From IMG/VR virus record IMGVR_UViG_3300031851_000097, positions 1 through 32,211 of that record: a stretch of 32,211 nt of DNA. One strand, given 5' to 3'. This DNA is from a virus. The translations under genes and the position numbers were made by a program. Each line of letters begins with the position of its first letter. The stretch's first letter is position 1. The notes under the pieces were generated by a model. The model searched no databases and had not been told where the DNA came from. It was given only the letters and a program-made list of their open reading frames with translations. Below are positions 3,195 through 13,112 of the stretch, one piece after another.

Positions 3195-3446
3195 ATGAAA
3201 AAGATTTCAGATCAAGAATTAACAACATTACAAACTCTTACGGAAGAGTTTAACAAATTAAAAACAAACTTAGGTGATTTAGAATTACAAAAGCATGGGA
3301 TTTGTTTGAGAGTAGAACAATTAAAAAGAGAATTCCAGTCTTTAGAAAAAGATCTAATGGAAGCTTATGGAAATGACTCTGTAATAAATATGGAGACAGG
3401 AGAGATAACAAAAAAAGAAAAAGAAAAAGATGGCAAAGATAAGTAA
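3195..3446 (+). CDS. Coiled-coil protein of unknown function
   Basis: An 83-aa, highly charged, almost entirely helical protein with heptad-like spacing of Leu and Ile through residues 5-60 (EELTTLQTL...FNKLKTNLGDLELQKH), followed by YGNDSVINMETGEI and a Lys/Glu-rich tail. Proteins with this LGDLELQKH core and the INxxTGEI ending are frequent and uncharacterised in aquatic phage genomes. It is the first gene behind the 3155 promoter and overlaps the next gene by 17 bases. Function is unknown; an oligomerising structural or assembly helper is plausible. Confidence 0.65.
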   Translation: MKKISDQELTTLQTLTEEFNKLKTNLGDLELQKHGICLRVEQLKREFQSLEKDLMEAYGNDSVINMETGEITKKEKEKDGKDK

Positions 3447-3966
3447 TACTACAGCATACCCTAAAATATTACCGACTCCAAATGATTTCGTTGTATTAAC
3501 GGATGTTGATGACAAGGATTCTACTAAGACTTGTACTATAGAGGGAGTAGGTCAGGCTTTAGGAACTTCTGTTGCACAGATTACTTTAACACCTTTTGAT
3601 ATATTAAATTCTTTTACGAACCCTGTTGTATTAGTCCCAGCTCAAGGGCTTAATAAATATATTGTACCATTTGGAATTCCAATCGTAAGGAATCTTGCGG
3701 ATGCTGCAGTTCCAGCAGCTTATAATTTTGGGGGATCAAATCCAAGAATTAGATATGACAGCACTTTTTTTGCAGAAATACCTTTTGGAATTTTTAACCA
3801 AGTTTCCCAATACACTGGCTATGGTCAAATGACATATCCATTTGTTGGAGCTGGTAATATAGATGATAATCAACCTTTACTATTTATGGCTCAAGGAGCT
3901 AATCCTACTGCAGGAAATAGTAATGTAGTTATAAATATACAATATAGAATAGTAGAAATAGCATAG
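3430..3966 (+). CDS. Fibre or decoration protein with shared N-terminal anchoring module
   Basis: A 178-aa protein. Residues 1-45 (MAKISNTTAYPKILPTPNDF...) closely resemble the first 45 residues of the next, much larger fibre protein, suggesting a common virion-attachment module. The remainder starts with an LTPFDILNSFTNPVVLVPAQG segment and is rich in beta strands, resembling the small beta-sandwich trimer domain found at the tips of many phage fibres. It ends with a strand, NVVINIQYRIVEI, usual for that fold. It overlaps the preceding gene by 17 bases and is followed after two bases by the paralogous fibre gene. I infer an alternative or accessory fibre head. Confidence 0.65.
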   Translation: MAKISNTTAYPKILPTPNDFVVLTDVDDKDSTKTCTIEGVGQALGTSVAQITLTPFDILNSFTNPVVLVPAQGLNKYIVPFGIPIVRNLADAAVPAAYNFGGSNPRIRYDSTFFAEIPFGIFNQVSQYTGYGQMTYPFVGAGNIDDNQPLLFMAQGANPTAGNSNVVINIQYRIVEIA

Positions 3967-3968
3967 AT

Positions 3969-6587
3969 ATGGCAAAAATTGAAAACACTACCGTATACCC
4001 TACGGTAACACCAGCAGCAAGTGATTTATTAATAGCAACTGACGTTAGTGATAATAATAAAACTGTAACTTTTTTAGTTAGTTCTATTGTTGGGGGAGGT
4101 GGTGTTCTTCAAGATTTACAATCCGTTTTAGACACAGGAAATACGGCTGTTCAAAATATAAACCTTACAGGTAATATGACTATTATTGGGACTGCAGCTC
4201 CTACTACTATTACAGCTGCAGGATCTACAGGAACAGCAGGTCAAATACTAAGCTCTACAGGAACAGGTTTAGCTTGGATTACTCCTGGTACAAAAGCATG
4301 CTGTGGTTGGGAGGAAACTTTAGTAATAGATCCTGCAACTTCGGTGGATGCTTTTATTCAGGGCTCAAAGCTGATTGTTTCTGCATTTGCAGGTGGAGGA
4401 ATAGATATTCTTGCACCCTCAACTTTAACAAATTCAGGAACAAGTACATTTACAGGTATAACAAATATTAATGGAACAGAATTATCTTTTAACGCTACAG
4501 GACAAATTAATGATTCTACAGGATCAATAGGAGTAGCAGGGCAGTGGTTAACATCACAAGGCCCAGGTCTTGGGGTTGCATGGTCAAACACAAAACCTCC
4601 TGGATCTTCTAACACTTTACAAGAGGTTTTAAATGCAGGAAACACTTCTATTAGTACAGGGATGACATTTACTGGAACATCAGTAATTTCTTTAGGTACT
4701 ACTGTTAGTATTTCTTCTTCAGGCAGTAATGAATGGTACGGTAATAATACCTTTAGTATGAATGGTAATACTGCTACAACATCTGGTATTGCATTAACTG
4801 GAACTTTATGGGATGGAACAAGTATAGGTACTGCGGGGCAAGTATTAACCTCTACGGGTACAGGAGTTCTTTGGGCTGCTGCTGCGTCAGGCGGAGGAAA
4901 TAATTTACAACAAGTTTTAGATTTAGGGAATGTTGCTACAGGAGCTAATGCAAATATAAGTATTACAGGATCTCTTACTACGGGAACTATAATTGATTCA
5001 TCAGGATCTGCAGGTGCGATAGGACAATATCTAAGTATAAATGGATCTGGATTATCTTGGGTAAATAATGCTTGTTGTAATCTGCAGGATGTATTAACTG
5101 TAGGAGCAACAGCAACTACAAGTATAGTTTTATCAGGGGCAGGAATAAGCTTAACAGCACCTACTGTTATTCCAGGTCTTATACAGGATGGTGGTGGTTC
5201 AGTAGGTTTGGCTAATCAAGTGTTAACTATTAATGCTGCAGGTACTGCATTAGAATGGAATAACGCTCCAGCAGCTGGGGTGTCAAGTTTAACTCCTGTA
5301 ATTGCACCATCTATAGGAGCTCCATTAAGTCTAAGTTCAACTACAGGTGCTATTGTACTTACGTCTCATGAATACGCAGGAGGTAATAATGTAGGTTATG
5401 TTCCTGCAGGAGGAAATAATGATCCTCTTCTTTTCTTAAATGGAGCTGGTAACTGGACTGCAGCAGCTGGTGGTGGAGCAGTTACTTCTGTAAGCACAAC
5501 AGCAGTAGCGGTTTCAACAGGAAATCCTTTAGTAATAACACCTACTACAGGTGCGGTACTTGTAACTCCTCAGAGATATAATGGATTTACAAATGAAGGA
5601 TTTGTTCCGAGAGGCGGAGGAGCGACAACATTTTTAAGAGGCGATGGAAGTTGGGCTATCCCTCCAGGTGGTTCAGGGGTTACAAGTTTAACCGCTGCAT
5701 ATGCACCATCAACAGGATTACCTATGGATCTTTCGGCAGCAACAGGTGCTATAACTATATCTTCTTATGCTTATACTGGAGGCACAAACGTAGGACATGT
5801 TCCAACAGGAGGGCTTGGAGATCCAAATAGAAGTTTACGTGGAGATGGTACTTGGGCTGTGCAAGATGTTACTTCTGTAACTGCAGGTGCACCATCAGCA
5901 TCAACAGGATCACCGATTACTATAGCTCCTACTTCAGGAGCAGTTGTAGTCACTTCTAAAGAATACGCAGGAGCAAATAATGTAGGTCATGTACCAACTG
6001 GAGGTACTCTTACAACTTATTTGGCAGGAGATGGAACTTGGTCAGCACCAAAACAAACATTTCAGATAGATAACAGATTTTACGGACAAAAAATTACAGC
6101 AGGAACATCTTATTTTGCATTACCTGGGGCTGTAAAAGTTAATGCAAGTTTTGATCCATCAGGATTACAACCTGTATCTACTTCTGCTCCATCAACAGGA
6201 ACTTGGTCTTATGATGAATTGCAAGGGGCTGTTGTTCATACAAATAGTAATATTCCAGCAGGGTGTGGTTTTGATTCGCAACAGTTTTGTAGTGCAAAAA
6301 TAGTTACAACAACTACAACTCCTGGAATTTATGTTACAGAATTATGGAAGGTTTCACCATGCAGTGCTATAGTACCAGTTCTTGTGGCTACAGCTACAGA
6401 CACTTTTTCAGCACCATTCCCTACTACTGCAGTAGCTCAATGTAGGGATTTTGTTTTAACCGCTGTACCAGCTGATTTAAACATGGCTGCAGGTGATCAA
6501 ATAATAGTTACTCAAAGGTATAACTTTGCAGTAATCTTTAGTGTAGTAAATAATGTAAGTATAACATTCGTACAAATACCAGCATAA
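3969..6587 (+). CDS. Repeat-containing trimeric tail fibre protein
   Basis: An 872-aa protein built of repeats. Residues 1-45 match the N-terminus of the upstream 178-aa protein. Residues about 47-433 hold five degenerate copies of a unit starting near LQxVLxxGN and ending near GTAGQxLxSxGTGLxW. Residues 438-696 hold four copies of a 63-67-aa unit starting VTSL/V, passing through a GTNVGHVPTGG-like loop and ending FLRGDGTW. The last ~175 residues are non-repetitive, contain four or more cysteines and a beta-rich ending, and are probably the receptor-binding head. Ser/Thr/Gly/Ala/Asn-rich composition with few charges is typical of triple-stranded beta shafts. No depolymerase or intramolecular chaperone motif was recognised. 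Confidence 0.78.
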   Translation: MAKIENTTVYPTVTPAASDLLIATDVSDNNKTVTFLVSSIVGGGGVLQDLQSVLDTGNTAVQNINLTGNMTIIGTAAPTTITAAGSTGTAGQILSSTGTGLAWITPGTKACCGWEETLVIDPATSVDAFIQGSKLIVSAFAGGGIDILAPSTLTNSGTSTFTGITNINGTELSFNATGQINDSTGSIGVAGQWLTSQGPGLGVAWSNTKPPGSSNTLQEVLNAGNTSISTGMTFTGTSVISLGTTVSISSSGSNEWYGNNTFSMNGNTATTSGIALTGTLWDGTSIGTAGQVLTSTGTGVLWAAAASGGGNNLQQVLDLGNVATGANANISITGSLTTGTIIDSSGSAGAIGQYLSINGSGLSWVNNACCNLQDVLTVGATATTSIVLSGAGISLTAPTVIPGLIQDGGGSVGLANQVLTINAAGTALEWNNAPAAGVSSLTPVIAPSIGAPLSLSSTTGAIVLTSHEYAGGNNVGYVPAGGNNDPLLFLNGAGNWTAAAGGGAVTSVSTTAVAVSTGNPLVITPTTGAVLVTPQRYNGFTNEGFVPRGGGATTFLRGDGSWAIPPGGSGVTSLTAAYAPSTGLPMDLSAATGAITISSYAYTGGTNVGHVPTGGLGDPNRSLRGDGTWAVQDVTSVTAGAPSASTGSPITIAPTSGAVVVTSKEYAGANNVGHVPTGGTLTTYLAGDGTWSAPKQTFQIDNRFYGQKITAGTSYFALPGAVKVNASFDPSGLQPVSTSAPSTGTWSYDELQGAVVHTNSNIPAGCGFDSQQFCSAKIVTTTTTPGIYVTELWKVSPCSAIVPVLVATATDTFSAPFPTTAVAQCRDFVLTAVPADLNMAAGDQIIVTQRYNFAVIFSVVNNVSITFVQIPA
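4107..5267 (+). repeat. Five degenerate ~65-85-aa shaft repeats inside the fibre gene
   Basis: In protein sequence, units pair an LQxVLxxGN opening with a closing G-x-A-G-Q-x-L-x-S-x-G-x-G-L-x-W motif. Closing motifs are seen in all five units (the fifth drifts to GLANQVL...EW). The second unit lacks the opening motif. Conservation is at protein level, not nucleotide level, so the array is old. Confidence 0.7.
5280..6056 (+). repeat. Four 63-67-aa shaft repeats inside the fibre gene
   Basis: Units begin at about 5280, 5481, 5679 and 5868. Each opens with V(T/S)S(L/V), has a T-x-G-A-(I/V) strand in the middle, a G-x-N-x-G-(H/Y/F)-V-P-x-G-G loop, and ends in a G-(D/A)-G-x-W motif. Units three and four are the most alike. 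Confidence 0.8.
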
Positions 6588-6609: not shown

Positions 6610-6828
6610 ATGGATATCAGAAAAATCTCAATTGGCTCAGACTATAAGTCTGGAGCTATGCATTATATTGTAGGCCAAGATGTATTAGGAGGATCTCACA
6701 GTATACATCTTATACAGGCTAATGAACTTTCTTTTAGAATATGGATTCAAAAAGGAGATGAAGTGTATATGTGGAAAGAATTTCTTAAAACACTACCAAT
6801 ATCTTTAGAATATAATATAAACTTTTAA
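6610..6828 (+). CDS. 72-aa protein of unknown function
   Basis: A compact 72-aa protein with mixed alpha/beta character. It has conserved-looking stretches (GSDYKSGAMHYIVGQDVLGG and a WKEFLKTLP helix) that I have seen in uncharacterised proteins of aquatic phages placed next to GroES-like genes. No catalytic or membrane segment is visible. Its stop overlaps the next ATG by one base, which couples it to the co-chaperonin-like gene. The function is unknown; the tight linkage suggests the two act together or are inherited together. Confidence 0.65.
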   Translation: MDIRKISIGSDYKSGAMHYIVGQDVLGGSHSIHLIQANELSFRIWIQKGDEVYMWKEFLKTLPISLEYNINF

Positions 6829-7391
6829 TGAGATCTCCATATAACTTTATTGTTACCCCTTCACAAGATAGGAGGTATAGCAATATTAAAGATATAGGTG
6901 ATACTGAGTTTATTACAAGTGTGTCTGAAGAAGATCACGAATCATCTAATAGATTTGCTACCGTTGTGTCTTTACCTATAAATTATAATGGTCCTATAAA
7001 GGAAGGAGATACTTTATTAGTTCACCATAACGTATTTAAATTTTATAACGATATAAAGGGAAGACAAAAAAGTGGTCGTAGTTTTCTGAAAGATAATTTA
7101 TTTTTAATAGACTACGAACAGTTTTTTTTATACAAGCAAGATAATGAATGGAAGGCTTATGGAAAATATTGCTTTATAAAACCAGCACCTCTTCAAGAAT
7201 CATATATTTTTAAAGGAGGAAATGAAGAGCCTCTTTTTGGCACTATTAAATACATCAATCAAGAACTTTTAGATTTAGGTGTTAATGTAGGAGATAAAAT
7301 TTCTTTCACTCCAGATAGTGAATACCCTTTTACAATAGATGATGAGAAACTATATAGGATGTTTACTAATAATATAACAATGATATTATGA
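6828..7391 (+). CDS. GroES-like co-chaperonin with two tandem domains
   Basis: A 187-aa protein that reads as two GroES-like beta-barrels in a row. Domain 1 (about residues 5-102) has an FIVTP start strand, a polar loop in the place of the GroES mobile loop (residues 12-40), RFATVVSLP, then KEGDTLLVHHNVF. Domain 2 (about 112-187) has KYCFIKPAP, FGTIKY, NVGDKISFTPDSEYPF and the ending KLYRMFTNNITMIL. Both follow the GroES order: first strand, loop, G-x-V strand, V-G-D-x-V-x-F, a loop, then I-x-x-x-D-I-x-A-x-x. Phage co-chaperonins such as T4 gp31 replace GroES on host GroEL to fold the capsid protein; I infer an analogous job here. It overlaps the oxygenase gene by four bases. The GroES assignment is moderately sure, the duplication somewhat less. 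Confidence 0.66.
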   Translation: MRSPYNFIVTPSQDRRYSNIKDIGDTEFITSVSEEDHESSNRFATVVSLPINYNGPIKEGDTLLVHHNVFKFYNDIKGRQKSGRSFLKDNLFLIDYEQFFLYKQDNEWKAYGKYCFIKPAPLQESYIFKGGNEEPLFGTIKYINQELLDLGVNVGDKISFTPDSEYPFTIDDEKLYRMFTNNITMIL

Positions 7392-7963
7392 TATATACAG
7401 TAGATAATTTTATAGAAAAAGATTTATTTAAAATTGCTACAGATTATTTAGATAAAGGAAAATTTATAAAACATACAGTGGGAGATAAAAACTTTTATAT
7501 TCAAGAGTCTCCAGATTCATTTAATGAATATGTATTAAGGAAACTATCCCAAATAGAAAACAAACCTTTAGAAAATATATTAAGTTTTTTTAGGGTATCT
7601 ACTGATGAGTTAGATAACACATGGAGAATTCATTCAGATCTAAATATAAAAGGAGAAAAGCCAGATCGAGCAGCTGTTCTTTATATGGGATTAAGAGAAA
7701 GAGAAGAACTTCATGGTACAGCTTTTTGGGAGCATGAGATTTATGGAGATAGTTTGCCATCTCATATATCAGACGAAGAATATAATAGAACTATAAAGGA
7801 GGATTCAGAAAACTTAGATATGTGGAGATTAGTTTCTGTTTCTGGATATGAACAAAACAGAATAATATCATATCCTGCTAATTACTTTCATAGTAAGTAT
7901 CCTAATAAATCATGGAAAGAAGGGAGACAAGTATACGTAATATTTTATAAATTTAAAAATTAA
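7388..7963 (+). CDS. 2-oxoglutarate/Fe(II)-dependent oxygenase-like protein
   Basis: A 191-aa protein with the facial triad of the 2OG-Fe(II) oxygenase superfamily: H82-x-D84 in the WRIHSD motif, a distal His168 in the NYFHSKYP motif, and Arg180 twelve residues later, where the arginine that binds 2-oxoglutarate normally sits, followed by the strand QVYVIFYKF. The length suits a single double-stranded beta-helix domain. Such enzymes hydroxylate proteins, nucleic acids or small molecules; the substrate cannot be read from the sequence. The gene overlaps the GroES-like gene by four bases (ATGATATTATGA region), so the two are probably co-translated. Phage copies have been proposed to act on virion or host proteins; that is speculation here. 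Confidence 0.75.
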   Translation: MIYTVDNFIEKDLFKIATDYLDKGKFIKHTVGDKNFYIQESPDSFNEYVLRKLSQIENKPLENILSFFRVSTDELDNTWRIHSDLNIKGEKPDRAAVLYMGLREREELHGTAFWEHEIYGDSLPSHISDEEYNRTIKEDSENLDMWRLVSVSGYEQNRIISYPANYFHSKYPNKSWKEGRQVYVIFYKFKN

Positions 7964-8177: not shown

Positions 8178-8456
8178 ATGGATATAAAAGAAATTAAGAT
8201 AAGTATAATAGAGGCGGGAGAAAAAGCTGTTAAACAATTAGTTAAAGTTGCTAAAGAAGATATTATTAAATATGAAGCTGAAGATCCGTTAGCAGCAGAT
8301 AGATTAAAAAATGCAGCAGCAACTAAAAAGTTAGCAATATTTGATGCTTTTGAAATACTAAAAAGAATAGAAGAGGAAAGAGCTATGTTAGATGGTAATG
8401 TTGCCGAAAAGAAAAGTAATACCCCTAAAGGATTTGCAGAGTCAAGATCAAAATAA
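8178..8456 (+). CDS. Small helical protein next to terminase, possible small-subunit candidate
   Basis: A 92-aa mostly helical protein, with residues 1-70 charged and amphipathic (including AADRLKNAAATKKLAIFDAFEIL) and a short polar tail. Related-looking proteins are found directly upstream of large terminase genes in aquatic phages, usually unannotated. Its 3' end overlaps the terminase gene by 65 bases in another frame, so the two are tightly coupled. Position makes it the best candidate for a small terminase subunit, but no helix-turn-helix is evident, so the role is inferred from context only. Confidence 0.6.
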   Translation: MDIKEIKISIIEAGEKAVKQLVKVAKEDIIKYEAEDPLAADRLKNAAATKKLAIFDAFEILKRIEEERAMLDGNVAEKKSNTPKGFAESRSK

Positions 8457-10680
8457 ATTATATACTGAAGTAACAAAACTTATTTCAAAATCTGTTATAG
8501 CTAATAAAAACAGGGGTAGAAGTTGGTTGTATGGGTATAATGAAAAATATGACGTAGTTGTTATATCTAAAACTGGTCAGATAGGATCTATTATTAATAT
8601 TAATGGATTAAAGATAGCATTACCTAAACCTCCAAAAAATATATATAAAAGATCTAAAGATAAAAAAGAACAGTATTGGGAATCATCTCCTATATCTAAA
8701 GAGTTAAATAGAGTAAAGTCTATATTTCAGTGGCATGAAACTCCAGATCAATTTAAATCACAGTGGGTTGATTATATAGAAGAAGAGTTTAATAGAAGAG
8801 AGCAAGGATACTGGTTTATGAATAATGGAGTACCAACATATATAACAGGTACACATTACATGTACTTACAATGGACAAAGATTGATGTAGGTAATCCAGA
8901 CTTTAGAGAAGCTAATAGGATTTTTTATTTATTTTGGGAAGCGTGTAAGGCTGATAAAAGAAGTTTTGGAATGTGCTATTTAAAAATAAGACGTTCTGGA
9001 TTTTCATTTATGAGTTCTTGTGAAGGAGTTAATCAAGCAACCATAACTAAAGATGCTCGTATAGGAATACTTTCTAAGTCAGGATCAGATGCAAAAAAAA
9101 TGTTTACTGATAAAGTAGTACCTATATCTAATAACTATCCATTCTTTTTTAAACCTATTCAGGATGGTATGGATAAACCTAAAACTGAATTAGCATATAG
9201 AGTTCCTGCATCTAAGATTACTAAAAAAAATATGTTTAACCTTGCTGATGAAGAGCTTGAAGGTTTGGATACTACTATTGATTGGAAAAACACAGGAGAC
9301 AATAGTTATGATGGTGAAAAATTACAATTATTATTACATGATGAAAGTGGAAAGTGGGAGAAGCCAGATAATATTTTAAACAACTGGCGGGTAACAAAAA
9401 CATGTTTAAGATTAGGTAGCAAGGTTATTGGAAAATGCATGATGGGTTCAACTTCTAATGCTTTAGATAAAGGAGGTAGAAATTTTAAATCTCTTTTTGA
9501 TGATTCTCATCCTTCTAAAAGAAATGCAAATGGTCAAACAAAAAGCGGATTGTATTGTTTGTTCGTCCCTATGGAATGGAACTTTGAGGGATATATAGAT
9601 AGATATGGAATGCCTGTTTTTAAAACCCCTATTAAACCTATAATAGGGATAGACGGAGAAGATATTAATATGGGGGCTATAGACTATTGGGAAAATGAAG
9701 TAAATTCTTTAACTCAAGATCCTGATGCATTAAATGAATTTTATAGACAATTTCCTCGTACTGAGTCACATGCGTTTAGAGATGAGAGTAAACAATCTAT
9801 ATTTAATTTAACTAAAATATATCAACAGGTAGATTATAATGATTCTTTAATAATGGATCATCATATTACACGAGGATCTTTTTCTTGGGAGAATGGAATA
9901 AAAGACACAAAAGTAATATGGTCTCCTAATAAGAACGGAAGATTTTTAGTTAGTTGGACACCACCTTCTCATTTACAAAATAATATAATTAATGTAAGAG
10001 GACAAAAGAAGCCTGGTAATGAAGATATTGGATCTTTTGGTTGTGACTCTTATGATATATCAGGAGTAGTAGTAGGTAAAGGATCTAATGGGGCACTACA
10101 TGGACTTACTAAATTTAATATGCAAGAGGCTCCAAGTAATGAATTTTTTTTAGAATATATAGCAAGACCTCAAACTGCAGAGATATTTTTTGAAGAGGTT
10201 TTAATGGCTTGTATTTTTTATGGCATGCCTATACTTTGTGAAAACAATAAACCTCGTTTATTATATCATTTTAAAAATAGAGGATATAGAGGTTACTCAC
10301 TAAACAGGCCAGATAAAACATATACGAAGTTATCTAAAACAGAAAGAGAATTAGGAGGTATTCCTAATACTTCAGAGGACGTAAAACAATCACATGCTTC
10401 AGCTATAGAGTCCTACATAGAAAAACATATAGGAATAGATTTTAATGGAGATTATAGAGATGCAGGAGATATGGGGACAATGTTTTTTGGTAAGACTTTA
10501 GAGGATTGGGCTAAGTTTGATATTAATAATAGAACTAAGTTTGATGCAGCTATTAGTTCAGGGTTAGCTATTATGGCTAATCAAAAGCACTTATACACAC
10601 CATCTAAACAAAAATCAAAAATAATCATTAACTTTGCAAGATATAATAATACCAGTAACTCAAGCCAAATAATTACATGA
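8392..10680 (+). CDS. terL: Terminase large subunit (packaging ATPase-nuclease)
   Basis: A 762-aa protein, long for TerL because of an extended N-terminus. A conserved region at 138-185 (GYWFMNNGVPTYITGTHYM...FWEAC) precedes the ATPase. The P-loop is a deviant Walker A, KIRRSGFSF at 198-206. Walker B is LLLHDES at 313-319 with Asp317/Glu318. A coupling-type motif GSTSN is at 352-356. The C-terminal RNase H-like nuclease is suggested by GCDSYD (550-555), LCENNK (615-620) and the SEDVKQSHASAIES segment (661-674). It cuts concatemeric DNA and pumps it through the portal. A second ATG six bases downstream (8398) is an equally possible start. The gene overlaps the upstream gene by 65 bases and its stop overlaps the portal start (ATGA). 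Confidence 0.9.
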   Translation: MVMLPKRKVIPLKDLQSQDQNKLYTEVTKLISKSVIANKNRGRSWLYGYNEKYDVVVISKTGQIGSIININGLKIALPKPPKNIYKRSKDKKEQYWESSPISKELNRVKSIFQWHETPDQFKSQWVDYIEEEFNRREQGYWFMNNGVPTYITGTHYMYLQWTKIDVGNPDFREANRIFYLFWEACKADKRSFGMCYLKIRRSGFSFMSSCEGVNQATITKDARIGILSKSGSDAKKMFTDKVVPISNNYPFFFKPIQDGMDKPKTELAYRVPASKITKKNMFNLADEELEGLDTTIDWKNTGDNSYDGEKLQLLLHDESGKWEKPDNILNNWRVTKTCLRLGSKVIGKCMMGSTSNALDKGGRNFKSLFDDSHPSKRNANGQTKSGLYCLFVPMEWNFEGYIDRYGMPVFKTPIKPIIGIDGEDINMGAIDYWENEVNSLTQDPDALNEFYRQFPRTESHAFRDESKQSIFNLTKIYQQVDYNDSLIMDHHITRGSFSWENGIKDTKVIWSPNKNGRFLVSWTPPSHLQNNIINVRGQKKPGNEDIGSFGCDSYDISGVVVGKGSNGALHGLTKFNMQEAPSNEFFLEYIARPQTAEIFFEEVLMACIFYGMPILCENNKPRLLYHFKNRGYRGYSLNRPDKTYTKLSKTERELGGIPNTSEDVKQSHASAIESYIEKHIGIDFNGDYRDAGDMGTMFFGKTLEDWAKFDINNRTKFDAAISSGLAIMANQKHLYTPSKQKSKIIINFARYNNTSNSSQIIT

Positions 10681-13112
10681 AGAATGTCAACATAAACATA
10701 AAATCTGCTGCGTTTCCTGATCAGTTTGCTACAGACAAACAAAAAGCTACTGATGAGTTTGGATTACAGGTTGGGCAGGCAATACAATACGAGTGGTTCA
10801 GAAAGGATGGAAATAGTTGTAGGTTCTATAATCAGTGGGGAGAATTTCACAGATTAAGACTTTACGCAAGAGGAGAGCAATCAGTTGCTAAATATAAAAA
10901 TGAATTAGCAGTAGATGGAGATTTATCATATTTAAATTTAGACTGGACTCCTGTTCCTATTATACCAAAGTTTGTAGATATAGTAGTTAATGGAATGGCT
11001 GACAGAATGTTTAAAGTTAACTGTATAGCTATGGATGCTATGTCATCTGAAAAAAGAAATCAATATCAGGAGATGGTGGAAACAAATGTGGTGGCTCAAG
11101 ATCTATTTCATCAAATTGAGAAAGACTTTGGAATGCAAGTTTTTCAAGTTGATCCACAAACTCTACCTACAAGTGATGCAGAAATGGAATTGTATATGCA
11201 GCTTAATTATAAACCAGGTATTGAGATTGCTAATGAAATTGCAATTAACACTATGTTGGAAGAAAATCATTATTCTGATATTCGTAAAAGAGTAGATTAT
11301 GATATTACAACTTTAGGTATAGGGATAACAAGACATACTTTTCAATTAGGAGATGGTATAAAAGTGGATTATGTTGATCCTGCTAATGTAGTGTATAGCT
11401 ATACAGAAGATCCTTATTTTAAAGATACTTTCTATTGGGGAGAAATTAAAACCCTACCTATTGGAGAGTTAGTAAAAATAGATCCAGATATCACTAACGA
11501 AGAAATGGAGGAGATATCTAAATATAGCCAATCTTGGTATGACTACTATAATACAGCTCAAATGTATGAAAACAGTATGTTCTCCAGAGATACTTGTACT
11601 TTATTATATTTTAATTACAAAACAACAAATAGTTTTGTATATAAAAAGAAAAAAATGTCAGATGGCAATTTTAAAGTTCAAGAAAAAACTGACGAGTTTA
11701 ATCCTCCGCAAGAAATGATGGATGAAGGAGAGTTTGAAAAAGTAGAAAAAAGAATTGATGTATGGTATGAAGGAATAATGGTAATGGGAACTAACATTAT
11801 TTTGAAATGGGAGATGATGGAAAATATGGTTCGTCCTAATTCTGCAAATCAATTTGCAATGCCAAATTATGTAGCGTGTGCACCAAGAATGTATAAAGGA
11901 GTGTTAGAATCTTTAGTTAGAAGAATGATTCCTTTTGCTGATCTTATTCAAATAAGTCATTTGAAAATACAGCAAGTAGTTGCTAAAGTAGTTCCTGATG
12001 GTGTGTTTATAGATGCTGATGGATTAAGTGAAGTTGATTTAGGAACAGGAGCGGCCTATAATCCAGAAGATGCATTAAGGTTATATTTCCAAACAGGATC
12101 TGTTGTTGGTAGAAGTTTTACTCAAGACGGTGAGTTTAATAATGCTAAAGTTCCTATTACTCAACTAACCTCTAATAGTGGACAAAGTAAAATGCAAATG
12201 CTTATAGGTAATTATAATCATTACTTAGGAATGTTAAGGCAGGTTACGGGATTAAACGAAGCAAGAGATGGAACAATGCCTGATCCTAATTCATTGGTAG
12301 GTGTTCAAAAATTAGCTGCTTTAAATTCTAATGTAGCTACACGTCATATATTAAATGCAAGTTTATATATAACTAAAACTATAGCCGAATGTCTATCTAT
12401 AAGAACTGCTGATGTTTTGCAATATGCAGACTTTGCTGATGAATTTGCTATGCAGATAGGTAAGTACAACATGGGAATATTAGATGAAATTAGAAATCTT
12501 TATCTTTATGACTTTGGTATATTTATAGAGATGAGTCCAGATGAAGAAGAAAAACAGCAGTTAGAAGCTAATATACAAATGTCTTTACAAAACGGAGGTA
12601 TTGACTTAGAAGATGCAATTGACATTAGAACCATTAATAACTTAAAAATGGCTAATCAATTATTAAAAGTTAAGCGTAAACAAACTGCAACAGAAAAACA
12701 ACAACAAGCTCAACAAGCTCAAGCAATGCAAGGACAACAGGCTCAACAATTACAACAGCAAAAAGCTCAAGGTGCAATGGCTCAAAGCCAACAAGAAATG
12801 CAAGCTAAGATCCAAATTAAACAAGCAGAGATTGCTTTTGAAATAGAGAAACAAAAAAATGAAGCAGACCTTAAACGTAGATTAATGGATGTTGAGTTTA
12901 ACTATAACATGCAAATAAGAAGTATGGATCAACGGGGACTTCAACAAAGAGAAACCGAAAGAGAAGATGCTAAGGCTAACCGTATAAGCCAAGGCAACAC
13001 TCAGCAATCCAAAATGATTGAGCAAAGAAAAAGAAATCTTCCTCCGATTAACTTTGAATCAAATGAGGATAGTTTAGATGGATTTGACTTAGCTGAGTTC
13101 AATCCAAGATAG
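10677..13112 (+). CDS. Portal protein
   Basis: An 811-aa protein directly behind the terminase with a four-base overlap. The N-terminal half has the portal-like segment FVDIVVNGMADRMFKVNC (residues ~99-116), which I associate with portals of crAss-like and other Bacteroidota podoviruses, plus conserved WGEIKTLPIGEL and YKGVLESLVRRMIPFADL segments. The LNEARDGTMPDPNSLVGVQK region (about 535-555) resembles the clip/crown part of long portals. Residues ~660-760 form a Gln/Ala/Lys-rich coiled-coil, as in long C-terminal barrels of podovirus portals, followed by an acidic tail. Twelve copies would form the DNA channel at one capsid vertex. Length and position support the call strongly. Confidence 0.86.
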   Translation: MKNVNINIKSAAFPDQFATDKQKATDEFGLQVGQAIQYEWFRKDGNSCRFYNQWGEFHRLRLYARGEQSVAKYKNELAVDGDLSYLNLDWTPVPIIPKFVDIVVNGMADRMFKVNCIAMDAMSSEKRNQYQEMVETNVVAQDLFHQIEKDFGMQVFQVDPQTLPTSDAEMELYMQLNYKPGIEIANEIAINTMLEENHYSDIRKRVDYDITTLGIGITRHTFQLGDGIKVDYVDPANVVYSYTEDPYFKDTFYWGEIKTLPIGELVKIDPDITNEEMEEISKYSQSWYDYYNTAQMYENSMFSRDTCTLLYFNYKTTNSFVYKKKKMSDGNFKVQEKTDEFNPPQEMMDEGEFEKVEKRIDVWYEGIMVMGTNIILKWEMMENMVRPNSANQFAMPNYVACAPRMYKGVLESLVRRMIPFADLIQISHLKIQQVVAKVVPDGVFIDADGLSEVDLGTGAAYNPEDALRLYFQTGSVVGRSFTQDGEFNNAKVPITQLTSNSGQSKMQMLIGNYNHYLGMLRQVTGLNEARDGTMPDPNSLVGVQKLAALNSNVATRHILNASLYITKTIAECLSIRTADVLQYADFADEFAMQIGKYNMGILDEIRNLYLYDFGIFIEMSPDEEEKQQLEANIQMSLQNGGIDLEDAIDIRTINNLKMANQLLKVKRKQTATEKQQQAQQAQAMQGQQAQQLQQQKAQGAMAQSQQEMQAKIQIKQAEIAFEIEKQKNEADLKRRLMDVEFNYNMQIRSMDQRGLQQRETEREDAKANRISQGNTQQSKMIEQRKRNLPPINFESNEDSLDGFDLAEFNPR

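Follow-up and report, generated by a model that had tools for sequence, protein, structure and literature searches.

Does a short gene lying ahead of the terminase and portal genes of a marine phage encode a doubled GroES, and if so, which chaperonin does its product serve? The question is raised by the open reading frame at positions 6828-7391 (+ strand, ATG start, 187 aa) of IMG/VR record IMGVR_UViG_3300031851_000097. The stretch analyzed here (the window) comprises positions 1 to 32,211 of that record and is a fragment from a phage of marine flavobacteria. The original prediction interpreted the product as two GroES-like barrels fused head to tail and named T4 gp31 as the precedent for a phage GroES substitute.

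Conservation and distribution of the gene

In this work, we found relatives of the window protein encoded in 561 IMG/VR stretches, the best 80 of which were kept as loci. Named relatives occur in the Flavobacterium elemo phages, Cellulophaga Calle, phi38:1, phi19:3, Maribacter Panino, and the metagenomic podovirus MW202828; the window protein and the proteins of the isolates share 23-57% identity. In all pairs with computable dS, dN was 0.06-0.22 and dS approximately 0.6-3 in both halves of the gene, with several of the dS values near saturation. Purifying selection acts on both halves. Because of the 561 relatives and a dN far below dS, this is not a chance reading frame.

A search of PHROGs matched residues 1-183 to phrog_13932, annotated as "co-chaperonin GroES" (E = 9e-22). 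This is the protein's own family, which includes the proteins of Calle, phi19:3, elemo, and Panino and occupies the same place before terminase. The GroES label is thus already in databases (phrog_13932; elemo, Calle), and the phrog_13932 annotation is silent on the two-domain architecture. A tandem GroES gene and a terminase gene were also observed at approximately 873,600 of CP070801.1, a 1.05 Mb contig labelled as an Aenigmatarchaeota archaeon. This contig is probably a chimeric assembly or a binning error, rather than evidence of an archaeal provirus.

Two GroES-like domains in one chain

The AlphaFold2 model of the full-length protein, based on 45 family members, has a pLDDT of 89 and a pTM of 0.82. 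In the Foldseek search of this model against PDB, the top two ranks were taken by 7ekq_R and 7ekq_Q (210-214 columns; E = 1.7e-5 and 2.5e-4; TM 0.55-0.58), which are the Chlamydomonas tandem co-chaperonins Cpn20 and Cpn23. Single GroES chains followed, with gp31 at rank 33. Since tandem chains are on top, this search ruled out a gp31-like single-domain protein and makes chloroplast/apicoplast Cpn20 a better precedent than gp31.

The C-terminal GroES-like domain (residues 108-187; 7149..7388) was readily recognized by profile methods. It matched GroES by hhalign (96.9%, E = 1.5e-10) and PDB GroES by hmmsearch (E = 6e-4), and the C half of the family profile picks up a relative's own single GroES. 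The single-GroES family phrog_3188 matched the C halves of Calle (E = 9e-7) and phi19:3 (E = 1.7e-8). Pfam Cpn10 (PF00166) also hit the C half only, with 28.0 bits in Calle and 31.7 bits in phi19:3 (cut-off 21.1). The corresponding score in the window protein was 13.0 bits, and no Pfam or NCBIfam model matched that protein above its cut-off; matches to 4HBT and MJ0548_C were below the cut-offs and were taken as chance.

The N-terminal domain (residues 1-107; 6828..7148) is divergent, and its third barrel strand is followed by an insertion. When modelled alone, it had a pLDDT of 84.8, and its 16 best Foldseek matches in PDB were all GroES, Cpn10, gp31, or Cpn23, with modest values (best E = 0.013; rmsd 7-9 Å). 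Foldseek of the predicted models therefore returned GroES-type barrels for both the full length and the N half alone, as the original prediction had expected of a structural check. Its expectation that each half would match in separate profile searches held for the C half and was borne out only marginally for the N half: in the window's clade, hhalign gave the N half 26% against GroES, in register and above all 150 column shuffles. Elsewhere in the family, phrog_3188 matched residues 14-64 of the elemo protein, which belong to the N half (E = 3e-4). Aligned in register to a GroES profile, N halves from the elemo and phi19:3 clades scored 8.5-12.6 bits (best of 900 shuffled controls, 5.5; reversed, 2.7). 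Between the two halves, the hhalign alignment was confined to the VKxGD turn, such that the tandem repeat is invisible by self-comparison.

The absence of a Cpn10 match in the N half of the window protein and the 26% profile match of that half could be taken to mean that only one half is a GroES domain and the other an unrelated beta domain. We consider this very improbable, because co-chaperonins alone top the N-half fold search, phrog_3188 reaches the elemo N half, and the in-register matches exceed all 900 shuffles. The N half, although marginal by profile in the window's clade, is best described as a divergent GroES-like domain on the agreement of several weak tests. Taken with the full-length model, the predicted arrangement of two GroES-like barrels head to tail is well supported, with the N half as its weaker part.

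Loops, turns, and the insertion

Both motifs named in the original prediction could be placed at equivalent turns. KEGDTLLVHH (residues 58-67; 6999..7028) forms the third-strand turn of the N domain, and G60, D61, V65, H66, and H67 of this region are at least 90% conserved. VGDKISFTPD (residues 154-163; 7287..7316) forms that of the C domain and aligns with VKVGDIVIF of GroES. The insertion in the N domain (residues 66-90; 7023..7097) adds short strands at residues 72-74, 80-82, and 86-88 in the model, and its N68 and G78 are invariant.

Confidence of the model is lowest at residues 21-40 (pLDDT 62 for residues 31-40), the place of the GroES mobile loop. A putative GroEL-binding mobile loop may accordingly be assigned to residues 19-40 (6882..6947), with the hydrophobic pair F28-I29; residues 28-29 are hydrophobic in nearly all 45 members aligned. 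The loop reads GLIL or GLVL in the elemo members, similar to SGLLLS of the phage single GroES. In the window it reads EFITS, which is less hydrophobic than GIVL or GLLL, and FIT or LIT is found in the window's clade. The loop at the mobile-loop position of the C domain (7185..7241) is SYIFK-like in the window's clade, and no such motif is present in the elemo phages. The long roof hairpin of bacterial GroES is absent from both halves in the alignments.

Neighboring genes

The tandem gene was predicted to lie just upstream of terminase and to be translationally coupled to a 2OG oxygenase. Across the family, the first of these statements is correct: in 96 of 121 loci, a homolog of the window's terminase is encoded no more than 3 kb downstream. 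In the window itself, an oxygenase-like gene and two small ORFs intervene before the genes for the terminase large subunit (8392..10680, + strand; phrog_6681, E = 8e-175) and the portal protein (10677..13112, + strand; phrog_6547, E = 2e-147).

The oxygenase-like gene (7388..7963, + strand) does overlap the tandem gene in the window, where an ATGA at 7388 joins the stop of one to the start of the other. This arrangement is not general, as the gene follows the tandem gene in only 60 of the 121 loci that could be tested, 59 of which share the overlap, and was not found next to it in MW202828, Panino, elemo, or Calle. Given this distribution, the gene is a clade-specific accessory and lies outside the core design. 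Its product is a 2OG-Fe(II)-oxygenase-like protein (HSD82 ... H ... R; phrog_1644, E = 8.5e-9) with a DUF6445 match just below the cut-off and no match in PDB; the HxD...H motif is kept in 12/12 members read. In Panino (PP540027), a phrog_1644 protein is encoded at 4502-5068, two genes from groEL.

On the other side, a TAATG joins the stop codon of a 72-aa ORF (6610..6828, + strand) to the start codon of the tandem gene. This ORF immediately precedes the tandem gene in 113 of the 122 loci that could be tested and has no PHROG or Pfam match; its product is a possible partner of the co-chaperonin. Further upstream, the adjacent ORFs 3430-3966 and 3969-6587 have a similar N-terminal stretch (MAKIxNTTxYPxxxPxxxD...TDVxD), which is probably a shared attachment domain of tail-fiber-like proteins, the second of them long and repetitive.

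Phage-encoded GroEL and single-domain GroES

A phage GroEL (PF00118) was found in 18 of the 19 records that bear a tandem gene, and a separate single-domain GroES likewise in 18 of the 19. The one record without the latter (G010) ends inside its groEL. In phi19:3 (NC_021789), the tandem and single GroES genes are present and GroEL was not found by the PF00118 search; this phage either uses the host GroEL or has lost its own. In every record where the two were both found, groEL and the single groES are near each other; the single groES lies beside groEL or one gene away from it in elemo, Calle, Panino (where it is annotated as hypothetical), and MW202828. In elemo, for example, gp44 (GroES) adjoins gp43 (GroEL), and gp30 is the tandem protein. 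The groEL and groES genes are approximately 10-12 kb from the tandem gene in close relatives, and in the elemo phages the tandem gene is on the opposite strand.

Direct search of the 32 kb window found no groEL. The absence of groEL and groES here can be explained by the extent of the fragment, because, in close relatives, approximately 10 kb separate the end of groES from the tandem gene downstream of it, and the window includes only 6.8 kb ahead of the tandem gene, ending about 3 kb short of where these genes lie. The presence of groEL in the window's own genome is thus extrapolated from the relatives.

Outside this lineage, our comparison spans seven GroEL phages, namely, phi14:2 and cr108_1 (both crAss-like), DAC20, immuto, two Vibrio phages, and EL. 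The tandem protein is absent from all seven, and a single GroES was found above the cut-off in four of them. Co-occurrence with GroEL within the lineage together with absence from these seven phages represents a lineage linkage, which fits a chaperonin role without proving it.

The phage GroEL keeps D52, D87, D398, GDGTTT, and N265 and does not have the GGM tail. At position 234, which belongs to the GroES-binding helix, most of these phages have E instead of L. Its closest PDB match is a reconstructed ancestral GroEL of the Bacteroidetes group. Expression of such a GroEL is established for phi38:1, since its peptides were identified both in infected cells and in samples of released virions (PMC13288928). 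As a separate observation, several contigs of an Aliivibrio MAG (G023) contain divergent groEL-groES pairs with groEL first, which suggests that many phage fragments were binned into this MAG.

Comparison with chloroplast and apicomplexan Cpn20

Two GroES-type domains arranged head to tail are likewise found in Cpn20 of Arabidopsis, in Chlamydomonas Cpn20 and Cpn23, and in Plasmodium cpn20, and Cpn20 is the best fold match over both halves of the phage protein. The company is also similar: plant and algal Cpn20 coexists with single-domain Cpn10 and its cognate Cpn60, and the phage relatives have GroEL and a single GroES. Chloroplast Cpn10 and Cpn20 assemble into functional hetero-oligomers with a total of seven GroES domains, and Plasmodium cpn20 by itself substitutes for GroES in Escherichia coli (PMC3542282, PMC5780408). 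However, the phage protein differs from Cpn20 in having a far more divergent N half with an insertion, short roof hairpins, a C loop that is not kept as a GroEL-binding loop in all clades, and a gene located in a late/packaging operon. Apicomplexan cpn20 retains a mobile loop and roof in both domains (PMC3542282), whereas the phage protein does not have this combination. As the phage halves are without the roof and the C loop of elemo is without the motif, the likeness that we propose is one of working mode and not of orthology. The identity to Cpn20 in the structural alignment is 13%, and the tandem arrangement probably arose independently.

Possible functions of the tandem protein

Our preferred reading, to which we assign a probability of roughly 0.6, is that the tandem co-chaperonin acts in the manner of chloroplast Cpn20 and contributes to the lid of the GroEL encoded by the same phage. 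Because the relatives encode both GroEL and a separate single GroES, the protein is most likely a third component beside these two. The N domain loop would dock on the GroEL apical domains, and the C domain would occupy a second ring position. Lids could be tandem-only, with six or eight domains, or mixed with single GroES; for example, three tandem chains and one single chain would give 3 x 2 + 1 = 7 domains. As its gene is found together with those for terminase, portal, and capsid, such a lid would adapt the folding cage to a structural protein of the phage, and the client is most likely a late one, since the gene precedes terminase and portal. Several observations count against this reading: the lack of groEL in the window itself, the weak sequence match of the N half in the window's clade, the EFITS sequence of the N loop, E234 of most phage GroELs, the distance of groEL and groES together with the opposite strand in the elemo phages, and the lack of a detected GroEL in phi19:3.

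Other roles for the protein are less probable. The core of the original prediction, a tandem GroES-like co-chaperonin within the late operon, is supported. As a gp31-like substitute, the tandem protein would take the place of host GroES on host GroEL and give the capsid protein a larger cage, with no part played by a phage GroEL. T4 gp31, the lid with which T4 widens the GroEL chamber for gp23 (PMC5780408), is among the Foldseek matches of both the full length and the N half. A phage-encoded GroES-like fold, a link to virion production, and a short roof are shared with gp31 and the phage single GroES; the missing roof hairpin in both halves and the example of phi19:3 are also consistent with this role. 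Yet gp31 has one domain, acts in seven copies, and works on host GroEL, whereas the protein studied here has two domains per chain, and genomes of its relatives encode a GroEL. With a GroEL in 18 of 19 records and a single GroES likewise in 18, host GroEL is not the obvious partner, and we regard simple substitution on it as unlikely. Slightly more credible, although still improbable, is a repurposed GroES fold that no longer works with a chaperonin and acts in packaging, in head completion, or as a cap. The location of the gene near terminase and portal and away from groEL would suit this role, as would the conserved insertion in the N domain; moreover, the solved tandem chains (Chlamydomonas Cpn11/20/23) come from a ClpP complex (entry 7ekq). 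Against it, the tandem gene co-occurs with phage GroEL and is missing from the seven other GroEL phages, and the hydrophobic pair of the N loop is kept across the family, as GLIL-type in elemo.

Within the Cpn20-like reading, a more specific proposal can be made only tentatively. This widespread lineage of marine flavobacterial podovirus-type phages might have a three-part group I chaperonin, consisting of GroEL, single GroES, and tandem GroES, that builds a mixed seven-domain lid. If so, the chloroplast Cpn10/Cpn20 design might have been reinvented independently, and the outcome might be a defined, asymmetric cage specialized for a phage structural protein.

Phage-encoded GroEL-type chaperonins are also known from Pseudomonas EL, Vibrio phages, and others, and the EL chaperonin does not interact with E. 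coli GroES (PMC7185714). GroEL was reported in phi38:1-like environmental genomes in 2017 (PMC5332604), and a 2024 study described both GroEL and GroES for Panino (PMC11590407); cpn10 is a core protein of Pervagoviridae (PMC8776804). In the open-access literature, we found no description of the phage tandem architecture or of a three-part set, and an earlier mention is possible.

For chloroplast chaperonins, it has long been debated how a tandem lid with an even number of domains can be matched to sevenfold symmetry (PMC3542282, PMC5780408). With one GroEL, one single GroES, and one tandem GroES in phages of cultured hosts (elemo, Calle, and Panino), this lid-symmetry problem would become directly testable. 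If the proposed role is true, these phages would carry a whole private folding machine with a specialized lid, rather than borrowing one from the host.
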